Assembly (NCBI RefSeq): GCF_030704535.1
Contig: NC_081810.1
Span: 992,501 to 1,056,500 of the forward strand
DNA: 64,000 bases
Reading direction: 5' to 3'
Origin: Vitis vinifera
Taxonomy: Eukaryota; Streptophyta; Magnoliopsida; Vitales; Vitaceae
In this document: piece by piece, positions 10,357-64,000 of the stretch
How the letters are laid out: each line of letters begins with the position of its first letter
How positions within the stretch are numbered: position 1 is the stretch's first letter
Notes under the pieces: generated by a model
Told to the model about the DNA's origin: nothing
Databases searched by the model: none
Seen by the model: the letters and a program-made list of their open reading frames with translations, nothing else
Translations under genes and position numbers: made by a program

Positions 10357-10767
10357 AATAACTAAAAATATGTCAAATTTATTTTCTTAAAAATGATATA
10401 TTTTTAGAATATATTTAAAAAAAATCTAAAAATAATAAATTTTCAGAATAATTATTACAAAAATTTAAGATCAGAAAGTTTGTCAAATATTATGGTAAAA
10501 AATAATTTTAAAGGGTATATTGATCTCTTCATATTTTATATCATCCCTATTAATTACGCAACTTATATGGACCAAATCTTAATTTTTGGTTCAACTATGT
10601 CAAAAACACAATTATCCCTTCTTACTATGGGTAGAACGAGACAGGTATAAAAAAAACTCGTGTCATTACCAATCCTAAATGAGATTATTATTATTATCTC
10701 AATTATATGTTTCATCCTCAAGGAATTTGAATATTGCCTTATATTATGTTACCTTGCATCACACCTC

Positions 10768-10830
<63 letters not shown>

Positions 10831-11857
10831 TAAAAATATAATTATTTATTTACTTTTCATGTTTGTTAACTATGTGTATAATTCAATAAAAAATATTTAT
10901 TTATTTATTTTTTACCTTTTCTATTCAACTCTAAGTACTTGTAAAAATATAATGAAATTATGAATGATAATAGGGTAGGTTTAGGACGAGTCACCCTCAT
11001 TCCAACCCGTCTTATTTATTTATGTTTATACCAACTCTCAAAAAAAAAAAAAAGGAAAAAAAAAAAGGGCGCCAGGTGCCATAAAATGTATTAGAACAAC
11101 TTATTTTTATTTTAAATATTTTTTATTAGGAATAATTATATTTTGAATCTAATTAGACCAAAAAATTAAGGTTTTGTTAATATAAATTAACCGTTTAAAC
11201 CTAAAACATAGAGAAAGTGTAAAAATTGAGAACAAGGATATGAATTTTTTATCTTTCTAAAAATGACATTCACTGTTTAATTTAAATTTTATTTTTTTTG
11301 TAAACCTCAATAAAATTTAATATAATTTAGTGATTTGAAAAAAAATACACAATTTTCTAAAAAAATAAAAATAAATTATTATTATTATTATTTAAAAATC
11401 AAACATCTTAGAAAATATATATTTTTAAAATCATGTATATAAAAAATTATTAAAAATATGTCAATTTTTTTTAAATGATATATTTATAGAATATGTTTTT
11501 AAAAAAATTAGTTTTCTAAAAATAATAAATTTTCAGAATAATTATTTAAAAAATTTAAGATAAAAAAGTTTGTTAACCATTATGGTAAAAAATAGTTTTA
11601 AAGGGTATATTAGTCTTTTCATATTTTATATCATCCTCATCAATTATGCAACTTATATGGACCTAAGTTTAATTTTTGGGCCCAACTATATCCAAAACAC
11701 AATTGTCCCTTCTTATTATGGGTAGAACGAGACAAGTATAAAAAAAACTCGTGTCATTACCATTATTATTATTATTATTTTTATCTTATTTATAAGTTTC
11801 ATCCTCGATAAGCAATTTAAATATTGCCTTATATTATGTTACCTTGCATCATACCTC

Positions 11858-11892: not shown

Positions 11893-12236
11893 TAAATAAA
11901 AATAGATTTATTTATTTATTTTCCATATTTGTTAACTATATATATAATTTAATAATAAAATATTTATTTTTTATTTTTTCTATTCAACTCTAAGTACTTG
12001 TTATATCAACGAATTACTTTTAGTTAAATAAAAAAACTAAATATTTTAATATTTTTTATTTAATAAAAAAATAAACATCACCTTAATAATTTAATAGTCT
12101 TCCTTAATTATATTCTTATCCATTCCAATAAGTTATCAATCATTAGAATGCTTCCGCATAATCTTTCTATTAAAATATTTTTAGTGGAAGCCTTTTATCT
12201 AAAAAAAAAAAGAAAGTATTTTTGATAAATTTATTT

Positions 12237-12330
12237 AAAGTGTTTTTCTAAACACTTTGTAATTATTTTTAAAATTTTTAATTAAAGTGTTTTTCTAAAC
12301 ACTTTGTAAATTACTTTTAAAAATTTTAAA
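12237..12330. repeat. 47-bp tandem duplication with hairpin
   Basis: Two neighbouring copies of a unit starting AAAGTGTTTTTCTAAACACTTT, itself an inverted repeat (AAAGTGTTT with AAACACTTT). It lies roughly 400 bp upstream of the likely helicase transcription start. Confidence 0.6.
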
Positions 12331-12609: not shown

Positions 12610-13565
12610 GCCGTAGGGGTATACAAATACGTACGGAGTCGGTTTTTATCTCTCTCTTTCAATTTGTTTTCCACTTGGGAAAGAAGAATAAAAGAAACTT
12701 GAAACTGAAGGGAAGATATTTTTAGAGAAAAAGGGGGAAAAGAAGGTGACTTCTCAACAAAGATTAGGGTTTTTGGATCTTTATTTTGCTTTGATTCTTC
12801 GCCATTCGCAGGGTTTCCTCCTCGTCCTCGGTCACAGTACAGGTGTATTTGAATGTCTTATCTTGCCTTCTGTTTTTTCCTTTTTTTTTTTTTTTTTTTC
12901 TTTCTCATTATGTTTGGACGGTGGGAAAATGGAGGGAAGGGAAAGGAGAAAAGATGAAAAGGAAAGGGAAATGTTGAGTGCGTGATGTTTTATCTTTTAT
13001 TTTGTTTTTGGTTTTTTTTTGTTGATTTTTTATATTTTTGGTTTGTTTGGGCAAATTGGAGGAGTCAGCTGAGGGGAATGGCCGGGATAGTCGAGTATTT
13101 TTTTCCTTCGGGATTCAAAATTGTGGGTTGGTTTGTTTTTTTGTTTTGTTATTCCTTTGTGCTTTATCGGGGATCAAATGAAGATTTAAGTGGGCAAGAC
13201 CATTTTGCCTTTAGTTTGTTGTTTGACATTCTGTATTTTCTGAATGGATCGGTTTCTTTCTTTCTATAGCAGATCGGTTTTTTTTTTTAAATGTTTGGTT
13301 GTGTTATTATTTATTTGCATTGTTTGTATTTTGTTAATTATGATTGTTTTGATTTTGAGTTATGAGATCGAGTTGTTTGATAATTTTTTTCTCCCTGAAA
13401 AGGGTTTTGATTTGTAGGTTGAAGAGAAGTTTTGGGACAGGGAAGGAATAATTGAATTATTTGGGTGTGGTAGTGGAGAAGTTTGTGGAAATTGGATTAG
13501 ATTAGGAGTTTGAGTTTAGTGTTAGGTGGAATTATAGAAGGATAAGAGTGGAATTGTGTTAGAGC
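12610..13565 (+). promoter_or_regulatory. Helicase promoter end, 5' UTR exon and 5' UTR intron
   Basis: A TATA-like TATACAAATA lies near 12619. A CT-rich leader follows, with a probable noncoding exon ending at 12842 (ACAG before GTGTAT). An intron 12843-13417 (acceptor TTTGTAG) leads to the second part of the leader, 13418-13565, which has no upstream ATG. The intron is T-rich, and leading 5' UTR introns are common in plant housekeeping genes. Splice sites are read by eye. Confidence 0.5.
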
Positions 13566-27965
<14,400 letters not shown>

Positions 27966-35644: not shown

Positions 35645-38600
35645 ATGGACCAAAGAGTTGAACAGTCTCCTAATGCACAAAGAGGGTTTCGAGTTCAAGC
35701 TCCTCTGGTGAGTCCATGTGTTTATTTTTACTTTTTCTGGTCTTTGAATTCTTCAATTCACTCGTTTCCGGGGGTACCCAGATGAAATTCTTGTTGAATG
35801 TGATGTTTTTTGTGGGAAATTTTGGAATTTTGGGAGCATGTTTCTGTGGAGATTGAGTAGGTTTCTTTCTTATATCGTGCAATTCTTCTTCTGGGTTTTT
35901 GGTTTCTTGAGTTTTGGAGATACCCTATTGAAATTCTTGACAAATGTGAAAATTTTAGGCAAATATTTGGGAATTGGATGATCATATAAGGTGATTGGGA
36001 TTGGCTTCTGTTTCTCTGTGATTAATTGTATCTTTCAGGGAGGCATCCAGATGAAATTCTTGTTAGATGTTCACTTTTGGGCAAACTTTTGGAAATTGAT
36101 TACCATATTTGTCCAAGGACCATCTGGATTTTGTTCTCTTGCAGTATTAGTTGATGGATGCTGAGTTTGGTGTTTTGGGGTTTTCATATCTAGTTTTACT
36201 ATGGAGGGACTGGTTTGAACTACTGCATTTGTTGTTGCAGTTTTATAAGCTTGGAGTTTGGGGTATGAAGAATGTGGCTTTATTTCTGGAGAACTAGAAA
36301 GATAGGTAACTAGGGATTAGGGAATTTTCTCATATATTCAATTTCTTGCTTCGAAGTTGAAATTATTAAACTTTTGGGTGAATTCTAGTGTGTTTATTAT
36401 CATGAATGTATCCGGCTTGTAGTCACCATCCTTTTATTTTGGTGAGAAATCAAGGCAGCTGCAGGGGAGAGGGTTGATTTCTGGTTGCTTAATTGAACAT
36501 GTGCCTTGTCCACAATTTTCTATTCATTTGTATAAAAATGATTGATTTACCATCTTGCAGACTGGGTCTTTAATTGCTATGGGCTTGATATCTATTGTAT
36601 CTTAGTGTTGAATGTTTTACTTTAGACCCACCTTCTTTTAGTTTCAAATGACTCTGGTTACTTGTCAATGCACCCTTTTCTTGAATTACCTATCCTCATG
36701 CACTTTTGTCTTGTTTATTTCTCATCAATGGTTCTACTTCTGGAGGATCTTCAACCTTCTGCCTTTTAGTGTTTCTGGCTTCTATTTGAACTGAAATTGA
36801 AAGATATTGAAATAATTCGATTCTATTCAATTTGAGATAAGAAGTCCTTATGTTTTGTTTTGGGTATTTGGTCAAAGATTAATTTGTTTCCTTCTTTGTA
36901 TCTCATTCATTATAGAGACATGAAGCATTGAGCACTGATGAAAATATAGCTGCATACATGTACCTAATTTGCATTAAGATTTTATTTTTTGGTAGCTGCA
37001 TGCTTGTACCTTACTTGTATTAAGATTTTGTCTGCACCTACATCAACTTCTATATTTTAAGCTTCTGTTTTGGGGGTGGGGGCATTAAGATAAGATTTCT
37101 AGGTCATGCAATGTTCATAATGTCCATCCCTTCTTCTTAAGGTTTTGCAATGGTACTGATTAATATCTGTTTGTGCTCAATTGCTTCTGGTATTTTTAAT
37201 CCCAATTTCTTTAGTTTAATAGCAGTTTTTGGTATGAAGGCAAATTTTCCCCTGTTGCCCTGGTTTGACTGTGCTGCTATGAGATGCAAAGTCCATGTTT
37301 CTATTTTATTTTTAGTTCTTATCGTCCATCTGATTTACTGTTTTCCAGGGAATTATGTAGTCTGACCATATGTATTTATATTTCTTCTTTTGCCTTCCTT
37401 TTCGAGTCATTCAATCTCTCTCTCTCTCTCTCTCTTGCTCTCTTCGTTTCTTCAACAGCATAAACTTCTGTATCAATATCTAGCAATTATCCGTAGTAAA
37501 AAAGTGAAGGAATGTCATAAAAATTAATGGAGCCTACCATACTAGTTATATTTGGTGAATAAGTTCCAGATGATGGAATCTTCTGTAGTAGCTTGTGGTG
37601 ATATAACATGGAACGAAATGATCAGATAGATAAAAAGATATTCCTTAGAGAACCTGTAGATGAACTTTAATTTCATGTGCTAGAACTGTATCAAAAGTGA
37701 AGTGTTGAATAAGAATAAAAAGTTGATGCAGTAATTTATTGCCTTTCTTGAAGACATCTGAACATCCATAAAATTGCACTAACTGTGGCATCACCCTGGA
37801 ATCTATAGCTAATTGGTTCACCCTTTCTCCTTGGTTGGTGCAAATCTTGATACTGTGCATAAGCCTGCTCATGGATACGAGTTTTTTCTTAAGGTGTATA
37901 TATTCAACTGTGAACATTTAATAAGGTCATCTGCTTCTCATATTTGTTTCTTGCTTATTATCATTATAGTTTTTTATGTTGCAGTCTTGCTATTTTTGCA
38001 TTCTAACGTGGAATGCTTTGCAGGTTGATTCTGTATCATGCTATTGCAAAGTAGATTCAGGCTTAAAAACAGTAGCAGGGGCAAGAAAATTTGTACCTGG
38101 ATCAAAACTTTGTATCCAGCCAGATATCAATCCTCATGCACACAAAAGCAAAAACTCTCGCAGGGAGAGGACCCGGTTCCAGCCGCCTCTTCTACCTGGT
38201 CTCCCTGATGATCTTGCCATTGCTTGCCTGATTCGAGTCCCTCGTGTTGAGCATAGAAAACTCCGTCTAGTTTGCAAGAGATGGCACCGGCTTTTGTCTG
38301 GGAACTTCTTTTATTCTCTTAGGAAAAGTCTTGGAATGGCAGAAGAGTGGGTCTATGTTATCAAAAGAGATCGTGATGGAAGGATCTCATGGCATGCTTT
38401 TGACCCCACCTACCAGCTCTGGCAACCACTTCCACCAGTTCCTGTGGAATATTCTGAAGCCCTTGGCTTTGGCTGCGCTGTTCTAAGTGGTTGTAACCTG
38501 TATCTATTTGGAGGAAAGGATCCAATGAAGAGATCTCTGAGACGGGTCATTTTCTATAGTGCTCGAACAAATAAATGGCATAGGGCTCCAGATATGCTTC

Positions 38601-42968: not shown

Positions 42969-43427
42969 TCAGATAGAATCAATCAACGCCTTGGCCTTAC
43001 AGACGCGGACATTTTCGAACTGTTCCGCTGGAAGCGTCTCCGACAAGGCTCCGACGTGAAACTGGATGTAACCGGAGGCGGCATCAATTCCGGTGACGGG
43101 GACCCACAAGAAGAACTTCTTGGCTTGAATCCCGGTCACATCGGAGACCGACCCATAACTGAGATGACCCTTGATCTTCTTGTCGTAGTACACAAGGTCA
43201 TCAAACTGAACGTAGCAGGGGTGATCCATATGGACCTCGAATTCTCCATCCTCCGACAGAGAGTACTCCTTGACGGAGGAGGGGATCAGGCCCCGGGGGA
43301 AGCCGAAATGGGGGAGGAGGTCGTGGACGTCCTCGGTAGGGGGGATGGCGAGGTGGGTTTCGAAGAGGAGGGCCAGAGAGAGGAGGAGGAGAGAGATTGC
43401 GGCCATGGATGAATAGGCGGAAGCCAT
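42969..43427 (-). CDS. DUF538 secreted protein, gene 1 (152 aa)
   Basis: Member of the plant DUF538 family (SVB-like), small apoplastic or endomembrane proteins of uncertain function, some linked to trichome branching and stress. Signal peptide of about 26 residues (SLLLLSLALLFETHLA), then PPTEDVHDLLPHFGFPRGLI, SVKEYSLSEDGEFEVHM, CYVQFDDLVYYDKKIKGHLS and FFLWVPVTGI, all typical of the family. Start chosen at 43427 in the good context CCATGG; an ATG 45 codons upstream lies before the TATA-like element and adds no family sequence. The stop TGA lies three bases before a GTAACT donor, so the last intron would be in the 3' UTR. Paralogue of the gene at 46417, arranged divergently. Confidence 0.93.
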   Translation of the reverse strand: MASAYSSMAAISLLLLSLALLFETHLAIPPTEDVHDLLPHFGFPRGLIPSSVKEYSLSEDGEFEVHMDHPCYVQFDDLVYYDKKIKGHLSYGSVSDVTGIQAKKFFLWVPVTGIDAASGYIQFHVGALSETLPAEQFENVRVCKAKALIDSI

Positions 43428-43485
43428 GGATGATGCAGAGACTGGGTTTCCGTATGAGGCAAGATACTTAGAGACGGAAACAGTA

Positions 43486-43494
43486 ATATAGAGG
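43486..43494 (-). promoter_or_regulatory. TATA-like box of DUF538 gene 1
   Basis: CTCTATATTA on the minus strand about 60 bases upstream of the chosen ATG. Confidence 0.45.
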
Positions 43495-43569
43495 GATTGT
43501 GAGGGGCAAGATTGGAATAATGTTAGGTGGGTAGTGGACAACACAAAATTGTTAGGGTTCAAGCCCTCA

Positions 43570-46400
43570 CTTTCCTTTTTCCCTTCAAATATGTAAATCT
43601 CAAGTTAGTCTTTGATATGGAAATAACATTTTTCAGGTATTTTTTCAATGTCTCGAGTAATTTTATTTGGACCGGAGTCAGATAAGAATACCAAGAATAT
43701 GATCAAACTTACGAAAAATTTCATATAAGATATTAAAAATGTGATCCAAGTATGAAAAAATGTAACTTGAAAAAAAGTAATCTGTCTTTTTTCCTATCAC
43801 TTCTAATCCTAATTCTTCTACTTCTTTTTTTCAATAAAAATTAGACACCTAAAATCATGAAAATGTTTTTATCTTCTTCTTCCCTCTCGCCGTAATCGTA
43901 ATGCTAACCTTAACTTCAAAGAAAATACAAAATTAAAAGGGGTTATGTTCCCATCTTTCTTTTTTCATTCAAACGTCGTATTTTTTAAGTTTTGATATTA
44001 AGTAGAATTTTTTAGTTTGCGTTGAATGTCTTCATCCAATTTAAAAGACGCAAGTCATTAATACTTCCAAATGTTGTGGTCTATAAGAATATGAATATTG
44101 AACAAAAAAAAAAAAAAACATTCCAATTGTATAAAAAATATGATTAAAGGTTTGAAGAATATAAAAAATATGATTAAGGTGTTGAAAATATGAGTGAAAT
44201 ACGTGACCAATGGTACAAATAATGTGACAAAGATACAAAATCTTATCAATAACTTATGAGTATAACATCTTTGGTATCTTAAAATTTGACATAAAATTAT
44301 GAAAATGTTATTTTATTCTTCTTTTGCCAAATCTAACCTTGACACTTCAAAGAAAATAAAACATTCTCAAAGGTATTCATTTCATTCATTGGGTGTTGGA
44401 TTTTGTCATGTAATTTCTTTTCATGAAACCAAAATATTAAAAATATTTAATTAATTTGAGAAAAAAATGGCATTATTTTATTTTGTTTGTCTAAATTAAA
44501 AAAGAAAAAAAGATTTTTTTTTTATTTTTTATTTTTTGTGATTGAGTGATGTTAAATACACCCACATTTTCTATCTTCTTTTATTTTTTGTTCTATTTTT
44601 GTAATGAGGTGGGTGTAGAGAGTCATAAATTGTCGTGGCCATCAAAATTATAATTAATTCATCCCATTTGAGGGATTATTTTTCATTTTTTTGTGAAATA
44701 AATATATTTTTTATTTTTTTAATTATAAGTGATTGACTTGGTAGCTCTATACTAAATGAACTACGCTATAAATATCCAAATTATAATCTATGTATCATTA
44801 ACCATTTAGGCAAGATGGTCTAAAAGAATTCATTTGTTTCATTGATCATTTTTCATCTTTTTATGAAGAAAATGTATTTTAAATTAAATTTTTATTTCTT
44901 TAATTATAAGTGATTGGCTTAGGAAATACACTCATAATAATGTAATATAAATGTCAACATTATAATTTATATATAATTAGGTATTTAGGTAAGACCCTCC
45001 AAGCAATTCATTGATTATTTTTCATCCATTATGATTTTTTTTTTCCATTTGCTTTTAGGGTTTTAATTATAAGTGATTGACTTAAATGTCAACATTAATA
45101 TTTATATTATTAACTATTTAGGCAAAACCATTCAAGGAATTCATTTAGTTAATTGATTATTTTTCTTCTTTTACATCAAAAAAAGTGTTTTCATTAATTT
45201 CTAGGTTTTTCATTATAATCGAATCTTTGCTAAATTCTAGAAAATTCTTTCATATTTAGAAGTGGGTAATTTTGTTCTTTCATATTTTTTATTTTTATTT
45301 TAAAAGAATAAGAAGATCGGTCAAATCATAACAACTAAAAGTATATGAAACAAGGAAGGAGTTTATATAAGTTAAGTTTGATCGATTTTTGAAAGAAAAA
45401 TCGACCAAACTAACAATCGAACCAATTAGATTTTTAATAGAAAATTGAACTAAACCAAACCTTTTTAATGTCGTTTGGTTCGATTTGGTTTGATTTTGCT
45501 TGATTAGGTTTGACATAACATTAAAACTCATATTGGGCCTTAAGCCCAATTGATTAGGTTATTGATTTGGGTTTATATTAAAGGATGTCTCCATTGACCC
45601 TCTATCCCACCATAATAAGCCCAAAGGCCAGTTGGATTTGTTGTTGAAATTACTTGGGCTTGTTGAGGCCCTTATGACTTGAAGCCCAATAGGATTCTAG
45701 TTTAGGTTTGCATGCATGCTAACCCAAGTGTTTCTTCAAAACATTACCCTTACATTTTTCAAATGAACAATTTATTTGGCAATAATTGTATTCCAACTAT
45801 CCGATCAAAACTTAATTAATGGGTCAAAAAATACATCATCGTTCTTAATCTTTAAGTACGTTGGGCAGTGTTTTAACTCAAAATGTTTTTAATAGAAGTA
45901 TTTTCTTTTAAACTATTTTCAAGAGAATTATTTATCAATTGTTTCTTTAAAAAACATTATATGTGATTTTAAATTTTTAAAAAAAATATATTTTTAGATT
46001 AAAAACGTTTTATATAATCACTATCTAAAAACTCTTTCTTCCTTGTCATCATAAGAATAATTCTACCACCCTTTTTCGCACTAACTATCTATTTTTCAAA
46101 GTAGTTGTTCTATTTTTTCTTACCAAACCAAACATTTTGCAAGTTGAAAACCAAATGAAACACCTTCATCTTTTATTTGTATTTTTTGAAATAAAATAGT
46201 AAAGTGAAATGTACTTTTTACCCCTCTCCTTCTTCGAACCCTACCCATACCTCCGTCTCGTTTCTCCATGTCCCATTTCTTCCCATCTTCCCCATCATAA
46301 TTGAATAAATAAAGAAAAAAAAAACATAACAAAACAAAATCTTCTTCCGTTTTTACCCTCCGGACTCTCTCCAAATTACCTCTCTTCTTTCTGGCACTGC
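43570..46400. other. Divergent spacer between two DUF538 genes
   Basis: AT-rich DNA. At 45360-45520 there is an imperfect inverted repeat built of AACCAAACC / GGTTTGATT-type words (MITE-like). At 45530-45690 several TTGGGC/GCCCAA motifs cluster, including a near-palindrome TTGGGCCTTAAGCCCAA. No gene seen. Confidence 0.4.
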
Positions 46401-46416
46401 CTCAGTCTCTTCACCC

Positions 46417-46881
46417 ATGGCTTCCACCCCTTCCTCCATGGCTTCAATCTCTCTCCTCCTCCTCTCTCTGTCCCTCCTCTTCCAAACCCACCTCTCTCTC
46501 CCCCCCTTCGACGACTTCCACGACCTCCTCCCTCCGTACGGCTTCCCGAAGGGCCTCATCCCCTCCACCGTCAAGTTCTATTCCATATCAGAGTCCGGCG
46601 AATTCGATATCCACATGCACCACTCCTGTTATGTTCAGTTCAACAGACTTGTCTTCTACGACAAGAAGATTAGGGGCCGTATCGAATATGGGTCCGTCAC
46701 CAATGTCACCGGGATTCAAACCAAGAAGCTCTTCTTTTGGGTCCCTGTCACCGGAATCGATTCCGCATTAGGGTTCCTTCGCTTTCACATCGGTCCCTTG
46801 TCGGAGAAGCTGCCGGCGAAACAGTTCGAAATGGTCCCCATTTGTAAGCACAAGGTTTTGACTCAGGCCTTTGAGAGGTAA
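46417..46881 (+). CDS. DUF538 secreted protein, gene 2 (154 aa)
   Basis: Close paralogue of gene 1. Signal peptide (SISLLLLSLSLLFQTHLSLP), then FDDFHDLLPPYGFPKGLI, SVT-type β segments, CYVQFNRLVFYDKKIRGRIE, FFWVPVTGI, and the end HKVLTQAFER. The coding region ends with AG|GTAATT, a good donor that overlaps the stop codon. A strong acceptor (TTCTGATGCAG) lies at 47422, giving an intron 46878-47422. If spliced, the last codon becomes AGG followed by TGA; if retained, AGG followed by TAA. The protein is the same either way. Two ATGs are in frame (46417 and 46438); the first has the better context (CCCATGG). Confidence 0.93.
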   Translation: MASTPSSMASISLLLLSLSLLFQTHLSLPPFDDFHDLLPPYGFPKGLIPSTVKFYSISESGEFDIHMHHSCYVQFNRLVFYDKKIRGRIEYGSVTNVTGIQTKKLFFWVPVTGIDSALGFLRFHIGPLSEKLPAKQFEMVPICKHKVLTQAFER

Positions 46882-52539: not shown

Positions 52540-53682
52540 CTATTCCGCCATTAACTTCTGCATTTCATCTACCTCATCGGGGAGCTGCTAATGACAAAAG
52601 AAAACCAGGATTCAAAGTTGTTCTACGCTGAAAGAGACACAGCCCTAGTAACATAGGTACAACCCTTGAATATCGACCACAGTGAGATGGGTTTTGTCGG
52701 GTCTGCGTGCCATCCCGTAACTAATGTAACGGGTTTGGGAAAATGTTATTATTTAAATATGACAAAGACAGGACGGATCCGAGAAATTTTCGTACCTACC
52801 CCCACCTTGTTTATTTATTATTATTAAAATTTTATTTTCTTTCTATTTTTCCATTACATATTTTCCCTAGATTTTCCTAAAACCAAACATAAGGTCAACA
52901 TACTCAAATTCCCACAAACCAATCAAAGACATTCAATGATGACCTTTTTTCTATTCATCAATGGAAGAAACACAAGGATTTTAATAATTGAACTTATCCA
53001 AACCCTTAACACCTACTTGTTTGATCCATGTGGCCTGCATGCCCACCTAACCATTCAACTTATTGCCAAAATACATAATAAACTTTCATAATGATAATTC
53101 AAATTTTCTTTTATTCTCGGTTTTTTTTTTCCCGATTCTTACGCACCTTTTATTTGAAATTTTCCAGGAAAATAGAATCAGTACCTGAAGAACTTGTTTG
53201 GAATGATCACGGCAAGAAACAGAGACTCCCTTGCCGCAAGAACGAATGGTTTGAAACTGCTGAACATCGAGCTTCTTGTTGATAAACCCCACCAGAAAAT
53301 ATATACTATTGGAGGGGGGCAGATCAACTTTGATCTCGTCAACATCGAACCACAGGAAGAATCTCTGGACCTCGATCCCCTTCAGATTGGTGATGGAGCC
53401 GTACTTGAGAGTGCCGGTGATGGAAGCTTCGTAGTAGACCAAGTAATCGAATTGTATGTAACACGAGCCCTCCAAACTGACCACGAATTCGCCATTTTCG
53501 GAGAGGGAATAGGATTTGACGGAGTCTGGGAGGAGCCCCCTTGGGAGGCCGAACTGCGTGAGGATATCGTAGACTGAGGGTTTTGGCGGGGTTGGGGCGA
53601 TGGAGAGCGGAGTTGCAGAGGCTGCGATGAGGAAAATTGAGATTAGGGCGAGGCCCAGATGAGATTTTGGGCGTCCGATCAT
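52540..53682 (-). CDS. DUF538 secreted protein, gene 3 (two exons, ~180 aa)
   Basis: Exon 1 53185-53682 (166 codons) and exon 2 52540-52584 or 52540-52587. N-terminal signal peptide (LGLALISIFLIAASATPLS), then PSVYDILTQFGLPRGLLP, SVKSYSLSENGEFVVSL, CYIQFDYLVYYEASITGTLK, FFLWFDVDEI, and CGKGVSVSCRDHSKQVLQ before the GTACTG donor. The second exon encodes LPDEVDEMQKLMAE, the usual end of longer DUF538 proteins. The acceptor is a tandem TAGCAG, so a Gln may or may not be added. The unspliced reading into the intron adds about 32 residues without family similarity. More diverged from genes 1 and 2 than they are from each other. Confidence 0.92.
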
Positions 53683-53939
53683 GGTTTCGGCGAGGATTCT
53701 AGGGAGAGATAGTGGGGGTTTCCTTCTTTCTGGGGATAGAAAATGTGTGTTTGGATGGAGAGAAAACTAGGGGGCTTTTGAGGAAGCTGAGAGGAAGCTG
53801 GAGGGGAGTACTTATTATTTCAACCCTGTCCGAATTACTACATTTTGTCCGCACATGCTGGGGAATGGTGCGGTGTGTGGAGGATCACATGTGGTCTTGT
53901 GCAACCTTATGATTAACAAACCTGGTATATTCAAGTTAT

Positions 53940-54640
53940 AATTTTTTAAAAATATAATTAAGATTTCATCAGGGCTAGTGATAGTAGTGTATTAGTCCAA
54001 GTGTGTATTAGTCCACCTAAACTCCATAAATGATAAAAACGATCTTAATTACATTTTATTCGACATATTTTGATTGTAATCAAATTTTTTCAGGATAAGT
54101 GATTATAAACTATCAAATAACAATGATTGTTTTGAATCATGTGATGATTGTATAATATCAAAACGTATCGATTAATCATTCATACAATATTCCAATGATT
54201 ATGATACAAGTGTATCGATTCATTCAATTACAAACTATCGAATAATATTGATGAAACATGCTTCAATGATTATGATAGAAGTGTATTGACTTAGGTAATC
54301 CAAAACTATTGAATAACATTAAAGACGTGCTTCAATGATTATGATAGAAGCTATCGACTCAAGTGATCACAAATTATCAAATACGTCAATTAAACATTCA
54401 TATAATTCGTTAATGATTGTGATGAAAAATTTTAAAGCGACAATAAAATTTGAAAAATTATCAAAATAAAACTTTAATACATTGACAATTATAACACTGG
54501 TGCATGGATACAAAAACATCAAGTAGATTGTTTCATAATAAATCAACAACAAATGTATAAAAAATAATGACAAACATAAGAATATATCATTAATTATGAT
54601 AAAAATATATCAATGCCAACAATCATATGTTTTGACAAAT
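53940..54640. repeat. Degenerate ~70-80-bp tandem repeat
   Basis: Units contain CAATGATTATGATA.AAGTGTAT, GACT(C/T)A.GT.ATC and AAACTAT(C/T)GAATAA. The CAATGATTATGATA anchor (or a close variant) falls near 54193, 54263, 54332 and 54411. The same words, equally degenerate, occur at 61240-61470. Confidence 0.7.
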
Positions 54641-55760
54641 TTATTAAAATAAAGCAAATTGATATTTAGACGACTCATCCATCATCCATCCATGTTATAA
54701 TATATGTCATTGAGGAATGGTTATATATACCTTTCATAAATGATATGACTAACTAAAAACATTTTTGTTAAGTATTGTAAAAAGAAAAAAAAAATATTTA
54801 TATTTTTAATTAATTAAGCCACCCTCCCAGCAATTAAGAGGTCTATTTGAAAAACACTAAAATTAGTTAAAGTGATAATTCATCTGTCTATCTATCTATC
54901 AATATATATATATATAAAATAAAGTTTTTATAAAATTAAGAATATCAAAATATTTATATTCAAAATATATTAAAAATAAAATAAAATAATTTTTTTCCTT
55001 CTATTTTATACATCACATTGTTTTAAATTTTGGAGAGACCCTCTTCTATTAGAAGGGATATCCTTTAGCATAATTCTCCACCCTACACCTTGAACACACT
55101 TTGATTTTTTCTTTTTCTTTTTTAAAGAAAAAAGCAATGATGGGTCAAGAAGAATTTAAGTCAATTGTGGTATCTTATTCATTAAGTAAATCACCACCTG
55201 CGTGTGAATCATGTGATTGATGCCAACCATGTGGATGAGATTTTATTTTTTTTATTCAACTAAGTAATATTTGACTATAAAAAAGTTCATCAAAATTAGA
55301 AACCCTAGACTTGATAAATTACTAAAGCCACAATTACTATACATTTATATAATACTAGTAGAGTGTTACATTCCATGTATATATAGTTGTAAAAAATTAT
55401 TATAAACTTTTATATTTTCTCATGGTAAAAATATAAATTATTATTATAATTAATTTTAGTTGTAAGATTATAAATAAAATAAAATAAAATTTAAAATTAA
55501 TTTAATTTATATGTTGGTTATAAATATATGTACATGTGAATATGTGTGTCAATTTTTTAAAAAATGTATATTTGAATAAAACAAATTGTGTACAAGAGAA
55601 AAAAAAACTTATGGACCGATTGGCTATGTTTTCATATACTTGTTTATATGCATGTGTTGACCTGTTTCGTCTATAAGTGAAGTTCATCGCTTTGGAAGAG
55701 ATGACACTTCAAAAGGTAATTAATGATGATAAAGATTTAATTTTATTATTTTAAAATCTG
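54640..55760. other. AT-rich spacer, no gene
   Basis: Long A/T runs, a short TCTA/TA microsatellite at about 54885-54918, and no recognisable coding or RNA feature. Confidence 0.4.
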
Positions 55761-57724: not shown

Positions 57725-58708
57725 ATGGCATACTTACCTCTTCACATCATGGAGAACATACTCTTGAGATTGCCAGTGAAGTCTATGCTCCGTTGTAGGT
57801 GCGTCTGCAAAGCTTGGTGCATGTTAATTTCTCATCCACAATTCGCTAAAACCCACCTCCAACTACCCCAAACACAAGCCAAAACTCGATTATGTATCAT
57901 AAAGTATGAAGAAGAAAAGGATGATGCTTGTATGGCAGTTCGGGTCTCTACTAAAGACTGGGAATCAATTGGTGATGGTGATGGTGATGGTGAGTTACTC
58001 GATGGTTTTGATTATTCATTTGGTACGGCAAATCTCAAACACCATCTCCGTCTTTTGAATTCTTGTGATGGGTTGTTGTGTCTGGTCGACATGTTTGGTG
58101 AATTTGTCTTGTGGAACCCATCTACCAGGCAGTATAATCCATTACCACCAAATCCTAATGGTCCACAAGATACTGCGTATGGATTGGGGTATGACCCCTC
58201 TACCGATGACTACAAGATAGTGGGTTATCATAGCTTAGGGTATGAGACTATGGTGGATGTTTTCTCGTTGAAATCCCGTGAGTGGAGAAGATTGCAGGAA
58301 AGACATGGAAGTCAAGTCGTAAGTTCGGGGAAGGAAGCTGTCTTACATGGGGCAGTGCATTGGATAGCTCGTGATCTGAATCCAGACCATTACACAGTAA
58401 TAGTGGCTTTTGATTTTGAAAAAGAGGAGTTCCGGCAGATGACCGCTCCATGGGATGATGAATCTTACTATATATTGTCTGTGATGGGAGGATGCCTTTG
58501 TGCACAAGAAGCCATAGATGGAAGTAAGATATGGGTGATGAAAGAATATGGTGTTGAGGCATCTTGGACTAGGAATGATTTGGATGACAAATTCAAGTCC
58601 CAGCTACTCCTTCTCGATATGATCAGTGAGCGTCATGACTGGTTCAGATATGATACCAACGTACACGTGGAAACTCTAGTTTCACCTTATCCATCAAAGA
58701 ATGAATGA
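57725..58708 (+). CDS. F-box protein with FBA_1-type domain (CPR1/CPR30-like), 327 aa
   Basis: Single-exon SCF substrate receptor candidate. F-box at residues 3-45 (LPLHIMENILLRLPVKSMLR, CRCVCKAWCMLISHPQFAKTHL). The F-box-associated β-propeller-like region follows: LLNSCDGLLCLVD, LWNPSTRQYNPLPP, YGLGYDPSTDDYKIVGY, VDVFSLKSREWRRL, LHGAVHWIA, IVAFDFEKEEFRQM, LSVMGGCLCAQE, IWVMKEYGVEASWTR, and the typical end ETLVSP. The usual stretch between the SWTK-like motif and the final repeat is much shorter than in family members I know, giving a compact C-terminus. A GATGGT run encodes DGDGDGE near residue 83. Start at the M with context ACAATGGC; an upstream in-frame ATG at 57686 lies almost at the predicted transcription start. 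Confidence 0.93.
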   Translation: MAYLPLHIMENILLRLPVKSMLRCRCVCKAWCMLISHPQFAKTHLQLPQTQAKTRLCIIKYEEEKDDACMAVRVSTKDWESIGDGDGDGELLDGFDYSFGTANLKHHLRLLNSCDGLLCLVDMFGEFVLWNPSTRQYNPLPPNPNGPQDTAYGLGYDPSTDDYKIVGYHSLGYETMVDVFSLKSREWRRLQERHGSQVVSSGKEAVLHGAVHWIARDLNPDHYTVIVAFDFEKEEFRQMTAPWDDESYYILSVMGGCLCAQEAIDGSKIWVMKEYGVEASWTRNDLDDKFKSQLLLLDMISERHDWFRYDTNVHVETLVSPYPSKNE

Positions 58709-60460
58709 TAAGTATGGTGAGTTGTGTTGTTATTTCTAACATAGTTTCAAGTGTGTTCTGTTGTTAATGGATCAAAACATGTATAGTGGCAATGACGATA
58801 AATTAGCAGTTCAGTTACATGTATTTTATGCTTTGTTTTTTTTTTTTTTTCAAGGAATTTAATTAAAAAAAAGGGTAAGTATTTGAAGAACCAAATCAAA
58901 GGAAAAGAATTCTTTTTCGAAAATGGTTTTTGAAAACTGTTTTTTTGATGTTTTGTAAAACAAAAATCCATTCAAAAACTTAAAATGTTTTTAACCTATT
59001 TTAAATATTTTTTAAAAATAATTTCTATATTTGATACTTTATTTTTAATCAATTTTACATGTTTGTATGTATAATTATTTTTAAAGTAACCCTAAAAAAA
59101 CAAGTGAGAATAACTAAAAAATGTTTGAAAACATTTTGTTTTCTATTTTTAAAAATAGAAAACAAGTTTTTGGTTGTAAAACTGTTCTTAAAAACAGTTG
59201 CCAAACGGTCCATTCAATTCTCCAAAAGTTATTAATTCAAACCCAAATTAGTACCATAGTTTATTAACTTGATTTTAGGAAATTTCAGCAATATTTTGAA
59301 CCAAAATATGGAATTGAATTTTGAATTCCTAAGATTTGATTATTTAATTCAATGAATTTGGTTATTTAAATTTAACAACTTTTTCCAAAAGATAGAATTT
59401 ACTATTTCTTTTATTATATTTTTTAGTTGAAAATTAGTTTCCCCTTTTTCAGGAACTTATCCATAATAAAATATTTACTTCTAATTCTTTTTTATTTGAA
59501 GACTTGATTTCATAATTTCAAAATTGTGCCCCGGATTACCTTTTGAGTTACATGTCACTTATACAAGCCTACCCTAAAATTTGTTAAACTATGAAATTAC
59601 GATCAATTTAATAGTAATTTAACCCATTAATTTTTTTTATGTTTATAATATATTTTAAATTTAAATAGTAAATAAAACAAAATTTTATGATAGAAAAAAA
59701 TAAAAATAAATTTATATATCTTTCTAAAAATGAAAAAAGTATATAATATAATTTGATATTATTTTAAAGAAATTAAAAAAAATGAATATTATTAGGTAGG
59801 ATAATATATATTATAAATATTATAAAAACATTAAATTAAGGTTTGAACCAAAAGAAATATTTCAAATGATTACCTAAGTCTGCCTAAAAAGCTCAAGTTG
59901 CACCCTAATAAGACGCAAAAATAAAAAATAAAAATTGTACAAATAATAGATTTATAAGAAATATTTCAAATATATATATAAAGAAAAATAATTTAGAAAA
60001 AAATAGAGAGACAGTGAATTATTAAGTCTTTTGTGATATAAATGCAATATTTTATAACAATTTATGTATTAAAGATTATTTTAGAATTACCACAAAATAA
60101 GATTTTTAATTATTATTATTAAAATGAAAATTATCTTATATATTTAATATCAATATTTAAAAAAACAATTATTAAATTAAGAACTGATTAATTTTAATTA
60201 TTAAATTCAAAATGAAACGATTGGTGAAAATTAAATTCAGTTGTTTGGAATATAAATTTAATATTATAAAAAAATATATAAAAAATATTTTAGAATATAA
60301 ATGTGATATTATGAAAAATGTTTTATTTGATTAATTATTAATTTTATATATTAATGAATATAGAATAAATGTTTTTTAAAAATTAAATTATTTATTAAAT
60401 TTGTGAAACTTGAAACCGACTTAAACTTTATTATATCGAGTATGAATTAAAAATCTCCAA
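58709..60460. other. AT-rich spacer with MITE-like end
   Basis: At 58915-59215 A/T-rich DNA carries related words at both ends (GGTTTTTGAAAACTGTTT at left; AAAACAGTTGCCAAACGGTCC at right), resembling the element at 47875. The remainder to 60460 holds only A/T runs and no gene. Confidence 0.4.
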
Positions 60461-60469
60461 GTTACCAAT

Positions 60470-60545
60470 CGGCCCAGTTACAGCCCAATAGTTCAAAAAT
60501 TAGGCTAGCCCATGGGTAGCCCATAATTAGCCGAATGAACGTAGC
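60470..60545 (+). promoter_or_regulatory. Cluster of site II (TGGGCY) motifs before the UXT gene
   Basis: GGCCCAG, AGCCCAA, AGCCCATGGG and AGCCCAT lie within ~70 bp just upstream of the leader exon. In plants such TGGGCY clusters mark promoters of proliferation and translation genes bound by TCP factors. Confidence 0.55.
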
Positions 60546-61460
60546 CTTAATTTCTGTTTGGACAAAAATTAGGGCATCCAAATCTTCTCTTCCCCAGAGT
60601 CCAGACTCTGCTCTTCGGTCGATCTGTTTAAGATACCTCAATCACTACACGAAAGCATTCGGCTTCTCAGTACAAGGTACTGTTCCAATTTCTTTTCCCA
60701 ATTCAATCAATCTAACTTTTACGTTAGATACAATTGGTTGGATGCTGAGAAAATAATGAGAAAATGAAAGAAAATTCTGAATAGTAAATTTTTCATCGTC
60801 TAGGGTTCGAGAATACAGAAAATTGCACTTCACCTATGATTTCATTTGAGTTTTTTCATTTCTATATATATTTTTTTGGTTTCGGATTTTTGGCAGTTAA
60901 GAGAGTGGGAGAGATAACGTAGTAATCAAAATGTGGTTTTCTTTTATTTCTCTCCATTTTCCTGGGAACCAAACAGCCGGTCTGATTGCAATTAGAGTGA
61001 TTTATAAGTTGGATATGCTATTGCTGGAAGTTTTCAATTCTAGAGTTTTTCTTTGAACACCCGTGGATTTATTGCCAGTTTGAATTACATCTCAGACTGA
61101 AATTTTTGTGGTTTTCTTTTATTTTTCTGCATTTTCGTGGTAACCAAACAGACGGTCGGATTGTAATTAGAGGGCTTTGTAGATTAGATATGCTATTGCT
61201 GGACGTTTTCAATTCTAGAGTTTCTGTTTGCTACTATAATCATAGACTTCAAAAAATTATCAAAATGACACTATTTAGACGTTTAGACAGTACATTAATA
61301 ATGCAATAAAATTATATTTGCTTATCTAATCATAAACATGAAAAGTTATCAAAATGATATAAATATTTAAACAATATGTCAATGATGGTAATAGAAATGT
61401 ATCAGCTCAAGCGATCAAACTTCAAAAAAATCATCAAAGTAACACCAATCAGACATTTCA

Positions 61461-61536
61461 TGATGTATCAATCAATATTTTTTTGATAGGTAATAAGGAT
61501 TGTATTAAAAAGAAAGGATGATGTATCAATAAATAT
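61461..61536 (-). mobile_element. 40-bp LINE 3'-end insertion with 18-bp target duplication
   Basis: TGATGTATCAATCAATAT (61461-61478) and TGATGTATCAATAAATAT (61519-61536) differ at one base. They enclose a T run, GATAGGTAATAAGGATTGTATT and a short A/G remainder: the reverse of a LINE terminus. Confidence 0.85.
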
Positions 61537-61720
61537 CACTGAAAATATGACTCCTATAATGAATATAAAACTTTCACAAATGCTATAGAATAACTTACAA
61601 TAATCGCTGAATATTATAACAAGAAAGTCAGTAGCCTAAGCACAAATAAATTTTAGCTAGTGATATTTGAAGCCGGGACAATTGTGCTAAGGATAGCTGA
61701 AGTTGATAATGGGTACAGAG

Positions 61721-61779
61721 GCCACATTTATGTTATATAACTATTTATCTATATAAAAAAAAGGGTACAAAGGCCACAT
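61721..61779 (+). mobile_element. Short LINE-end-like insertion with 17-bp direct repeats
   Basis: GGGTACAGAGGCCACAT (61721-61737) and GGGTACAAAGGCCACAT (61763-61779) flank ~25 bp ending TTATCTATATAAAAAAAA, close to the LINE end TTATCTATC plus A tail. The bases after each repeat also resemble each other, so a simple tandem duplication is an alternative. Confidence 0.55.
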
Positions 61780-62028
61780 AAGTTGTATAGTTGGGCTGAA
61801 ATGGTAAAGGAAGCTTCAAAATTGCTTTGAAGGCTATATGGACAACTTATCACCCCAAAATGCCCAAACATACCCTTAATATGGTTTTTAAAAAGGGTTA
61901 ATGCAAAAGTGGAAGAATAATTTCCATCATTTAAAAACATGAAATATAACTTCTTTTGGACAAAAATACCATTCAACAATTTTTTAGTCCCTTTCTCACA
62001 TTAAATATTTTTTTGGTTAAAAAGTTTT

Positions 62029-62081
62029 AAGTGTAAAATGTCAAAATAGCCTATCAAAAAAAAGTGTAAAATGTCAAAATA
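62029..62081 (+). mobile_element. 13-bp LINE-end insertion with 18-20-bp target duplication
   Basis: AAGTGTAAAATGTCAAAATA is present at 62029-62048 and 62062-62081 without mismatch. Between them lies only GCCTATCAAAAAA, the LINE terminus CCTATC plus an A tail. Confidence 0.8.
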
Positions 62082-63523
62082 AGATTATGTGTAAGTTTTA
62101 ACACATAGAAGTTATTTTTGGTGCTATTTCATCTTTTTAATCAAATATTTGTTTTAAAAAATAAGATGTGGAGATTACCTCTAGGTGTGAATGGCTGAGG
62201 TGACCACATTAGGAAATGAGAAGAAGACACCAAAAGATGCCAAACTCCTAAACACTGTCTAAATTTGTGAAATAGAGGCTAGTCTCAGAATCCCTGAAAT
62301 CTCCAAATTTCCATCATCTGCAAGCCTGGATCAAGGGCCTGAGACTGTTATTGTAATCCCATCATCTACAATCCTTGATCTAACACTTGAATCTCCGTCT
62401 TGTGAAAATCCTAGGGCTGGCGGTGGAAGAAGTAGAAGAGAGATTGAAGTGAACGGTAGAAGAAGGCAACAGGGGTTGTTCTTATTATCACTGGTGAAGT
62501 TCCAGCTTCACAGACAATATTCGTATTTGGGTATGCACTATATCTATCTATCTATATATCGTTTTCAGATGATATTGGTATTTGGGTATGCACTATATAT
62601 GTCATTTTTTGGTTGCATCTATGATTTTCTTTTTGTTTTTCTCTTTTATTCTGAAACAAAGGTCTTGTAATTATAGTCTCCTTCTTGGTTTGATGTCACC
62701 CTTTACCTATCATTGTTGGTTTCATTCATGTGTGTGTGTGTATATATATCCATGTATTGTTTTGAAAAAATAGAATAGCTAAAAAGATTGTTATTGGTTT
62801 GATTTGAGTAGGGTGAGGATGAGATGTGGTTATGATCTTCTGTCAAACAGCTGAATATTGCGGATGGACCTATGTTTTTCTTCTTTTTAAGCTAGAATGA
62901 AGCTATTCTGATTATACTTTTCTTCTTGGTTTGATTTGAGTAGGTTATTGATATCAAAATAAGCGATATTATCATTACGTGGTTACATATTGTTCTTTGG
63001 TTGCATTTATGATTCTATTGAAGGGAAAACTTGGTGTTATAATCAATCACTCATTTTTGGGTTGATTTCACTAGGGTAGACTCACAGGATAGATAAATAA
63101 TCTATCATTGTTGTTCTTCTTCATGTAGGCTATATCTATGGTCTAGATGTTTGGATGCTGATGCTTCCTCTTTGTTTTATTTCTTTAATTATATAGGATC
63201 CCAATTATTTGTTATTTTTTTATAGTCTTTTAGCACCTTTGTATATACTCCCAGTGTAGTTGGGGTTTGCCCCCTTATTTTTTGGAAAAGGTGCTTGCTA
63301 ATATATGCTTTGTTTGCCTATGAGGGGGGAAAAAAAGAAAAAAAGATCATTGCCTTGTTGGTTTCTAAAACTTTATCTTGGGCAATTGACTCAATTCCTA
63401 TCCCCTTGGTGATGCACTTCCATTCCAATACATATGTGCTCCTTTTATAACTGGTGATGTTTATGTTTGTTTAATCTGGCTTGTCAAAATTGTAATTAGG
63501 TTTCATTGCTTAATAGGGTTGAA

Positions 63524-63615
63524 ATGGATGGCCTTATACAACAGAAAGTGCAAAGGTTTGAAGAATTTGTTGACCGCCGCTTGAAACCTGATCTTGTTCA
63601 TGCTATTGCTGAACG
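63524..63615 (+). CDS. UXT-like prefoldin-family protein, first coding exon (gene continues beyond window)
   Basis: The exon (63517-63615) encodes MDGLIQQKVQRFEEFVDRRL followed by KPDLVHAIAER, which matches the N-terminus of plant UXT homologues, small alpha-type prefoldin-like proteins with a long coiled coil that act with the R2TP/prefoldin-like complex. It ends in phase 2 before GTATAT. About 120 further residues should lie in exons to the right; none could be confirmed in 63616-64000. An ORF running past the donor reads into intron. Preceded by a 5' UTR intron. Confidence 0.85.
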
Positions 63616-64000
63616 GTATATATTTTATTCCCACACTTCCATTAAATTACACTTTACATAAATTACAATCTTGGGTTGTGTCTAGAGAGATTTTTGCTCT
63701 TGATCTGCTTGACCAGTTTTACAAATTTAACCATTCACTTGACAGTTGGCATGTGAAGTCTGTGGTCCAGATTGTTTGATACATTGAGCATTTAAATAGA
63801 CTTGAAACATTGTCCGTTTTTAAGTGTTTTTTTTTTTGCTTCTGATTCTAGCTGGTGTGAATTGTACTTTGCCAATACCTCAAGTTCCTCAAATTTTCAA
63901 TTTTTTCATTGGACTCCTCTTCTCAAGGATATCTGAAACCATTTGGATTCTGCAACAATATACCTAGTTTTGACCATATTTCAAAGGATTATAACTCAAA

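Follow-up and report, generated by a model that had tools for sequence, protein, structure and literature searches.

Three closely spaced pairs of direct repeats lie within 620 bp of each other near the right-hand end of the 64-kb stretch of DNA that we analysed (the window). Each pair encloses a short insert with a run of A at one end, and we refer to the inserts, in order of position, as D3 (minus strand), D2 (plus strand) and D1 (plus strand). The initial annotation had read all three as tiny LINE insertions flanked by direct repeats of 17–20 bp and had placed them in one intron. All three repeat pairs exist and their lengths are as described, with 18 of 19 (D3), 16 of 17 (D2) and 20 of 20 (D1) positions identical. 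The intronic location was not established: the only gene recognised nearby is an F-box open reading frame (ORF) that ends at 58708, and a Pfam scan of six further ORFs, out of the 38 listed at 58600–64000, gave one weak match (E 0.085) and no family that passed. A 53-aa ORF that matched designed PPR proteins (whole-sequence E down to 1.5e-21) was not retained as a PPR gene; none of its stretches passed alone, and we attribute the match to repeats in the target proteins. We take a reading frame near 63.5 kb to resemble the prefoldin-like protein UXT, which would mean that D1–D3 lie upstream of its coding sequence. A 124-bp stretch that immediately precedes the cluster is present twice (60932–61055 and 61107–61230) at a spacing of 175 bp and with 87% identity.

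The window also holds longer L1 elements that can serve as references; their type, together with the genes present, suggests a flowering plant. A full-length L1-type LINE of 6114 bp lies on the plus strand at 17386–23499 (17367–23518 with its duplications) and is bounded by a perfect 19-bp duplication. Pieces of its ORFs match DUF4283, RVT_1 and zf-RVT in Pfam and, below the Pfam cut-off, an endonuclease/exonuclease family. The frame for its reverse transcriptase is split among several ORFs, and the 3′ end of the element reads TTATCTATC-A(n). The element is flanked by an ORF at 13563–14324 that by eye resembles the beginning of a DEAD-box helicase and by a Helicase_C match at 27387–27965, and because it lies between these two helicase parts it is probably inside an intron. 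A 5′-truncated L1 of ~151 bp is found on the minus strand at 26155–26305 (26138–26322 with its duplications, perfect over 17 bp) and ends TTTCCTATC-A(n). A third L1 3′ end, TTATTACCTATC-A7, lies on the minus strand and includes the stretch that matches D3 (15556–15591); it has the CTATC terminus at 15575 and no flanking repeat was found for it within 8 kb. Apart from the tiny inserts, the CTATC-A(n) terminus is thus seen at three L1 ends: those of the full-length element and the ~151-bp copy, and the one at 15575. A sixth site, counting D1 and D3, is followed by only A4 (49080) and has no repeat of note.

D3 is a 39-bp insert on the minus strand (61479–61517) that consists of 33 nt alignable to L1 3′ ends followed by A6, the end reading TTATTACCTATC-A6. 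In the orientation of the insert, the upstream copy of its 19-bp repeat lies at 61518–61536 and the downstream copy at 61460–61478. The A-run is seven long; one A was assigned to the repeat and the remaining A6 abuts the duplication. For all three inserts, the border between tail and repeat is arbitrary by 1–2 bases where both hold A. The 33 nt aligned over their whole length to the end of the full-length L1, with 25 of 33 positions identical and one gap. When the alignment was compared with 3000 shuffles in which CCTATC was held fixed and with 3000 random segments of the window, one as good was obtained in 0.0003 of the shuffles and in none of the segments. The corresponding values were 0.0013 and 0.0003 for the L1 end at 15575, and there was no signal against the L1 end at 26171 (0.46 and 0.10). 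In the BLAST comparison, 61472–61505 matched 15556–15591 over 36 columns with 89% identity and an E-value of 4.6e-6. The body of D3 is homologous to two of the three L1 ends in the window. With its repeats, a tail flush with the repeat, the L1 terminus and this 33-nt body, D3 is well supported as a putative very short L1 insertion made by target-primed reverse transcription.

D1 is smaller still, and here the earlier description of 13 bases between perfect 20-bp repeats proved exact. The insert (62049–62061, plus strand) consists of a single G, the L1 terminus CCTATC and A6, and the two copies of the target-site duplication occupy 62029–62048 and 62062–62081. The A-run is eight long, of which two were assigned to the repeat, leaving an A6 tail that abuts the duplication. 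The L1 ends at 26171 and 15575 likewise have CCTATC, and the full-length L1 has TCTATC; the leading G corresponds to A, T and A in the three L1 ends. The L1-like part is only 6–7 nt long and therefore below the length for homology statistics. From its repeats, tail and terminus alone, D1 is supported as a candidate for a very short L1 insertion through target-primed reverse transcription. It could be imagined instead that inserts of this kind are longer L1 insertions that later lost all but their last bases through an internal deletion. At D1, such a deletion must end at the upstream repeat yet leave that repeat perfect, and the additional event appears unneeded; we regard it as the least probable of the explanations weighed here.

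We then considered whether the repeat pairs could have arisen by replication slippage or tandem duplication, with the spacer diverging later. For both D1 and D3, BLAST and an extension test (extension score 0 on either side) indicated that the likeness between the two copies ends where the repeat does, which is the pattern of an insertion and not of a tandem duplication that has drifted. The repeats of D1 are moreover perfect, so that a strongly diverged spacer would not be expected between them. This explanation does fit another pair in the window, at 36959–37029 on the minus strand (CTACC-A6, 21-bp insert), which we rejected as a further L1 case. There the likeness continues upstream of the repeat, with an extension score of 8 that was reached by 0.023 of random pairs drawn from 58.7–62.2 kb, and duplication is hence the better reading. 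A weak continuation past the repeat is also seen at D2, where slippage or duplication may apply as well. For D1 and D3, slippage or duplication seems very unlikely.

D2 had been singled out as ambiguous, and we agree. Its 17-bp repeats lie at 61711–61727 and 61763–61779 on the plus strand and enclose a 35-bp AT-rich insert (61728–61762). The A8 at the end of the insert is flush with the repeat, and it is preceded by CTATAT instead of the L1 terminus CTATC. In comparisons with the three L1 ends, shuffles gave 0.22, 0.031 and 0.37, whereas random segments of the window gave 0.024, 0.0037 and 0.081; these values come from six tests on an AT-rich insert. The weak continuation of likeness beyond the repeat was not significant (0.28). 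As the likeness to L1 ends is mixed and the extension is not significant, the origin of D2 appears ambiguous on sequence grounds. The claim of three tiny LINE inserts within 620 bp is therefore sustained for D1 and D3 as L1 insertions and left ambiguous for D2. The accompanying proposal that reverse transcription stopped almost at once fared likewise: it is well supported for D3 by 33 nt of L1 end and supported for D1 by the terminus, and it is not shown for D2, which ends CTATAT-A8.

How exceptional these configurations are was evaluated over all 725 runs of at least five A (A5+) on both strands of the window. Eight of these runs had a non-low-complexity repeat with a score of at least 12 within 120 bp upstream, after removal of six further rows as low-complexity (one of them scoring at least 13, none with CTATC). 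Five of the eight scored at least 13: D1, D3, D2, the pair at 36959–37029 and 12235–12311, which is a tandem array and was rejected as an insert. At this short range, the array ranked first among A5+ runs and D1 and D3 second and third. No A5+ run with a short-range repeat scoring at least 13 was found in 60 dinucleotide shuffles (2-kb blocks), which were scored without the low-complexity filter.

CTATC precedes five of the 725 A5+ runs, compared with a mean of 0.8 and a maximum of 4 per shuffle. When repeats were sought up to 7 kb away, a score of at least 15 was found for four of the five CTATC-A5+ runs and for eight of the 720 others (Fisher 2e-7), six other runs with such scores, none with CTATC, having been removed as low-complexity. 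At short range, the counts were two of five and two of 720 (Fisher 0.0002), or three of 720 if the tandem array was kept (0.0004). Because the motif was derived from the finding, this enrichment test is only partly independent, although two longer L1s show the motif on their own. A relaxed scan that allowed one mismatch in CTATC and a tail of A4 or more returned the known cases, the pair at 36959–37029 and an AT-rich pair at 54792–54960. The probability that two short inserts fall by chance within 620 bp of 64 kb is ~0.02, which means little given that the clustering of D1 and D3 was noticed after the fact.

The main rival to an L1 origin is double-strand-break repair with filler DNA, in which staggered nicks are filled in and joined to leave a short duplication around 13–39 bp of filler, whose likeness to an L1 end is either accidental or due to copying from an L1. 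According to PMC8355091, with Vaughn and Bennetzen (2014) as the plant source, there are hints from natural insertions in both humans and plants that tandem duplications arise when breaks made by nearby nicks on opposite strands are repaired. The window itself contains other spaced direct repeats that lack an L1 terminus, among a total of 34 pairs scoring at least 13 that includes D1, D2, D3 and the ~151-bp copy. However, filler DNA does not predict CTATC immediately before a repeat-flush A-run in both D1 and D3, nor the presence of repeats at four of five CTATC-A5+ runs, and the body of D3 matches L1 along its whole length. We consider break repair unlikely for D1 and D3.

D1 and D3 are thus likely to be extreme 5′-truncated insertions of plant L1-clade LINEs, and the best reading is that they form the lower tail of ordinary 5′-truncated L1 insertions. 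From the repeats, the position and orientation of the A-tails, the L1 terminus and the match between the D3 body and L1, we infer the steps that would have produced them, from the nick and its use for priming to early termination and the joining of the ends. The L1 endonuclease would nick one strand at the target, and the poly(A) tail of an L1 RNA would anneal at the nick. Reverse transcription would then copy the tail and stop after only ~6–7 nt of the L1 3′ end at D1 and 33 nt at D3. The resulting short cDNA would be joined to the other strand, cut 19–20 bp away, and fill-in would duplicate the target. The human L1 endonuclease prefers TT/AAAA, according to PMC2912911. Out of six positions, the nick-site context fits this preference at four in D1, five in the ~151-bp copy, three in D3, three in the full-length element and one in D2. 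By chance, 10% of 6-mers in the window fit at four or more positions and 32% at three or more, and the contexts at D1 and D3 lend little support to the L1 reading.

In their poly(A) tail, target duplication and common 3′ terminus, D1 and D3 resemble 5′-truncated L1-clade LINEs of flowering plants. Truncated LINE copies are given as 100–1,000 bp long by Ohshima (PMC3747384), whereas D1 and D3 measure 13 and 39 bp. Extreme 5′ truncation as such is already known in kind from disease genes of humans, in which simple poly(A) insertions have been described (PMC3219598). That paper cites three such insertions from an earlier list; insertions of this type are ascribed to the human L1 endonuclease and resemble D1 and D3 in being tail-only or nearly tail-only products. 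It also reports one ~120-bp poly(T) insert, which may be a processed pseudogene or what is left of an Alu or L1 after severe truncation. That insert is long and its source untraceable, whereas D1 and D3 keep 6–33 nt of the L1 terminus and have tails of ~6 nt. D1 and D3 are new cases at the very short end of L1 insertions. In a literature search over titles and abstract openings, none of the matches listed described plant LINE inserts shorter than 50 bp, which is no proof of their absence from print. The Kojima survey of human and chimpanzee (PMC2912911) counted only insertions of 50–10,000 bp, so that inserts of the D1 and D3 type fall below its cut-off.

We see roughly even chances that target-primed reverse transcription by plant L1s often breaks off before it has passed the first tens of nucleotides and thereby leaves a large unannotated class of 10–50-bp inserts with 15–20-bp duplications. 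Such inserts could be found because the CTATC-A(n) terminus is kept across diverged L1 copies. If they are common, the lengths of L1 reverse-transcription products would become measurable down to near zero, revealing the rate of immediate failure, and tiny L1 inserts would explain some of the short direct repeats that go unannotated in plant genomic sequence.

Other repeats and genes in the window were noted in passing. Three repeat pairs at 10461–11762 have a constant spacing of ~1.09 kb, which suggests a diverged duplication or terminal repeats. A tandem array with a 71-bp unit, present in 3.3 copies, occupies 54157–54383. Of three DUF538 genes, those at 42969–43604 and 53086–53766 match the Pfam family, and the one at 46330–46881 is similar to these by eye only.
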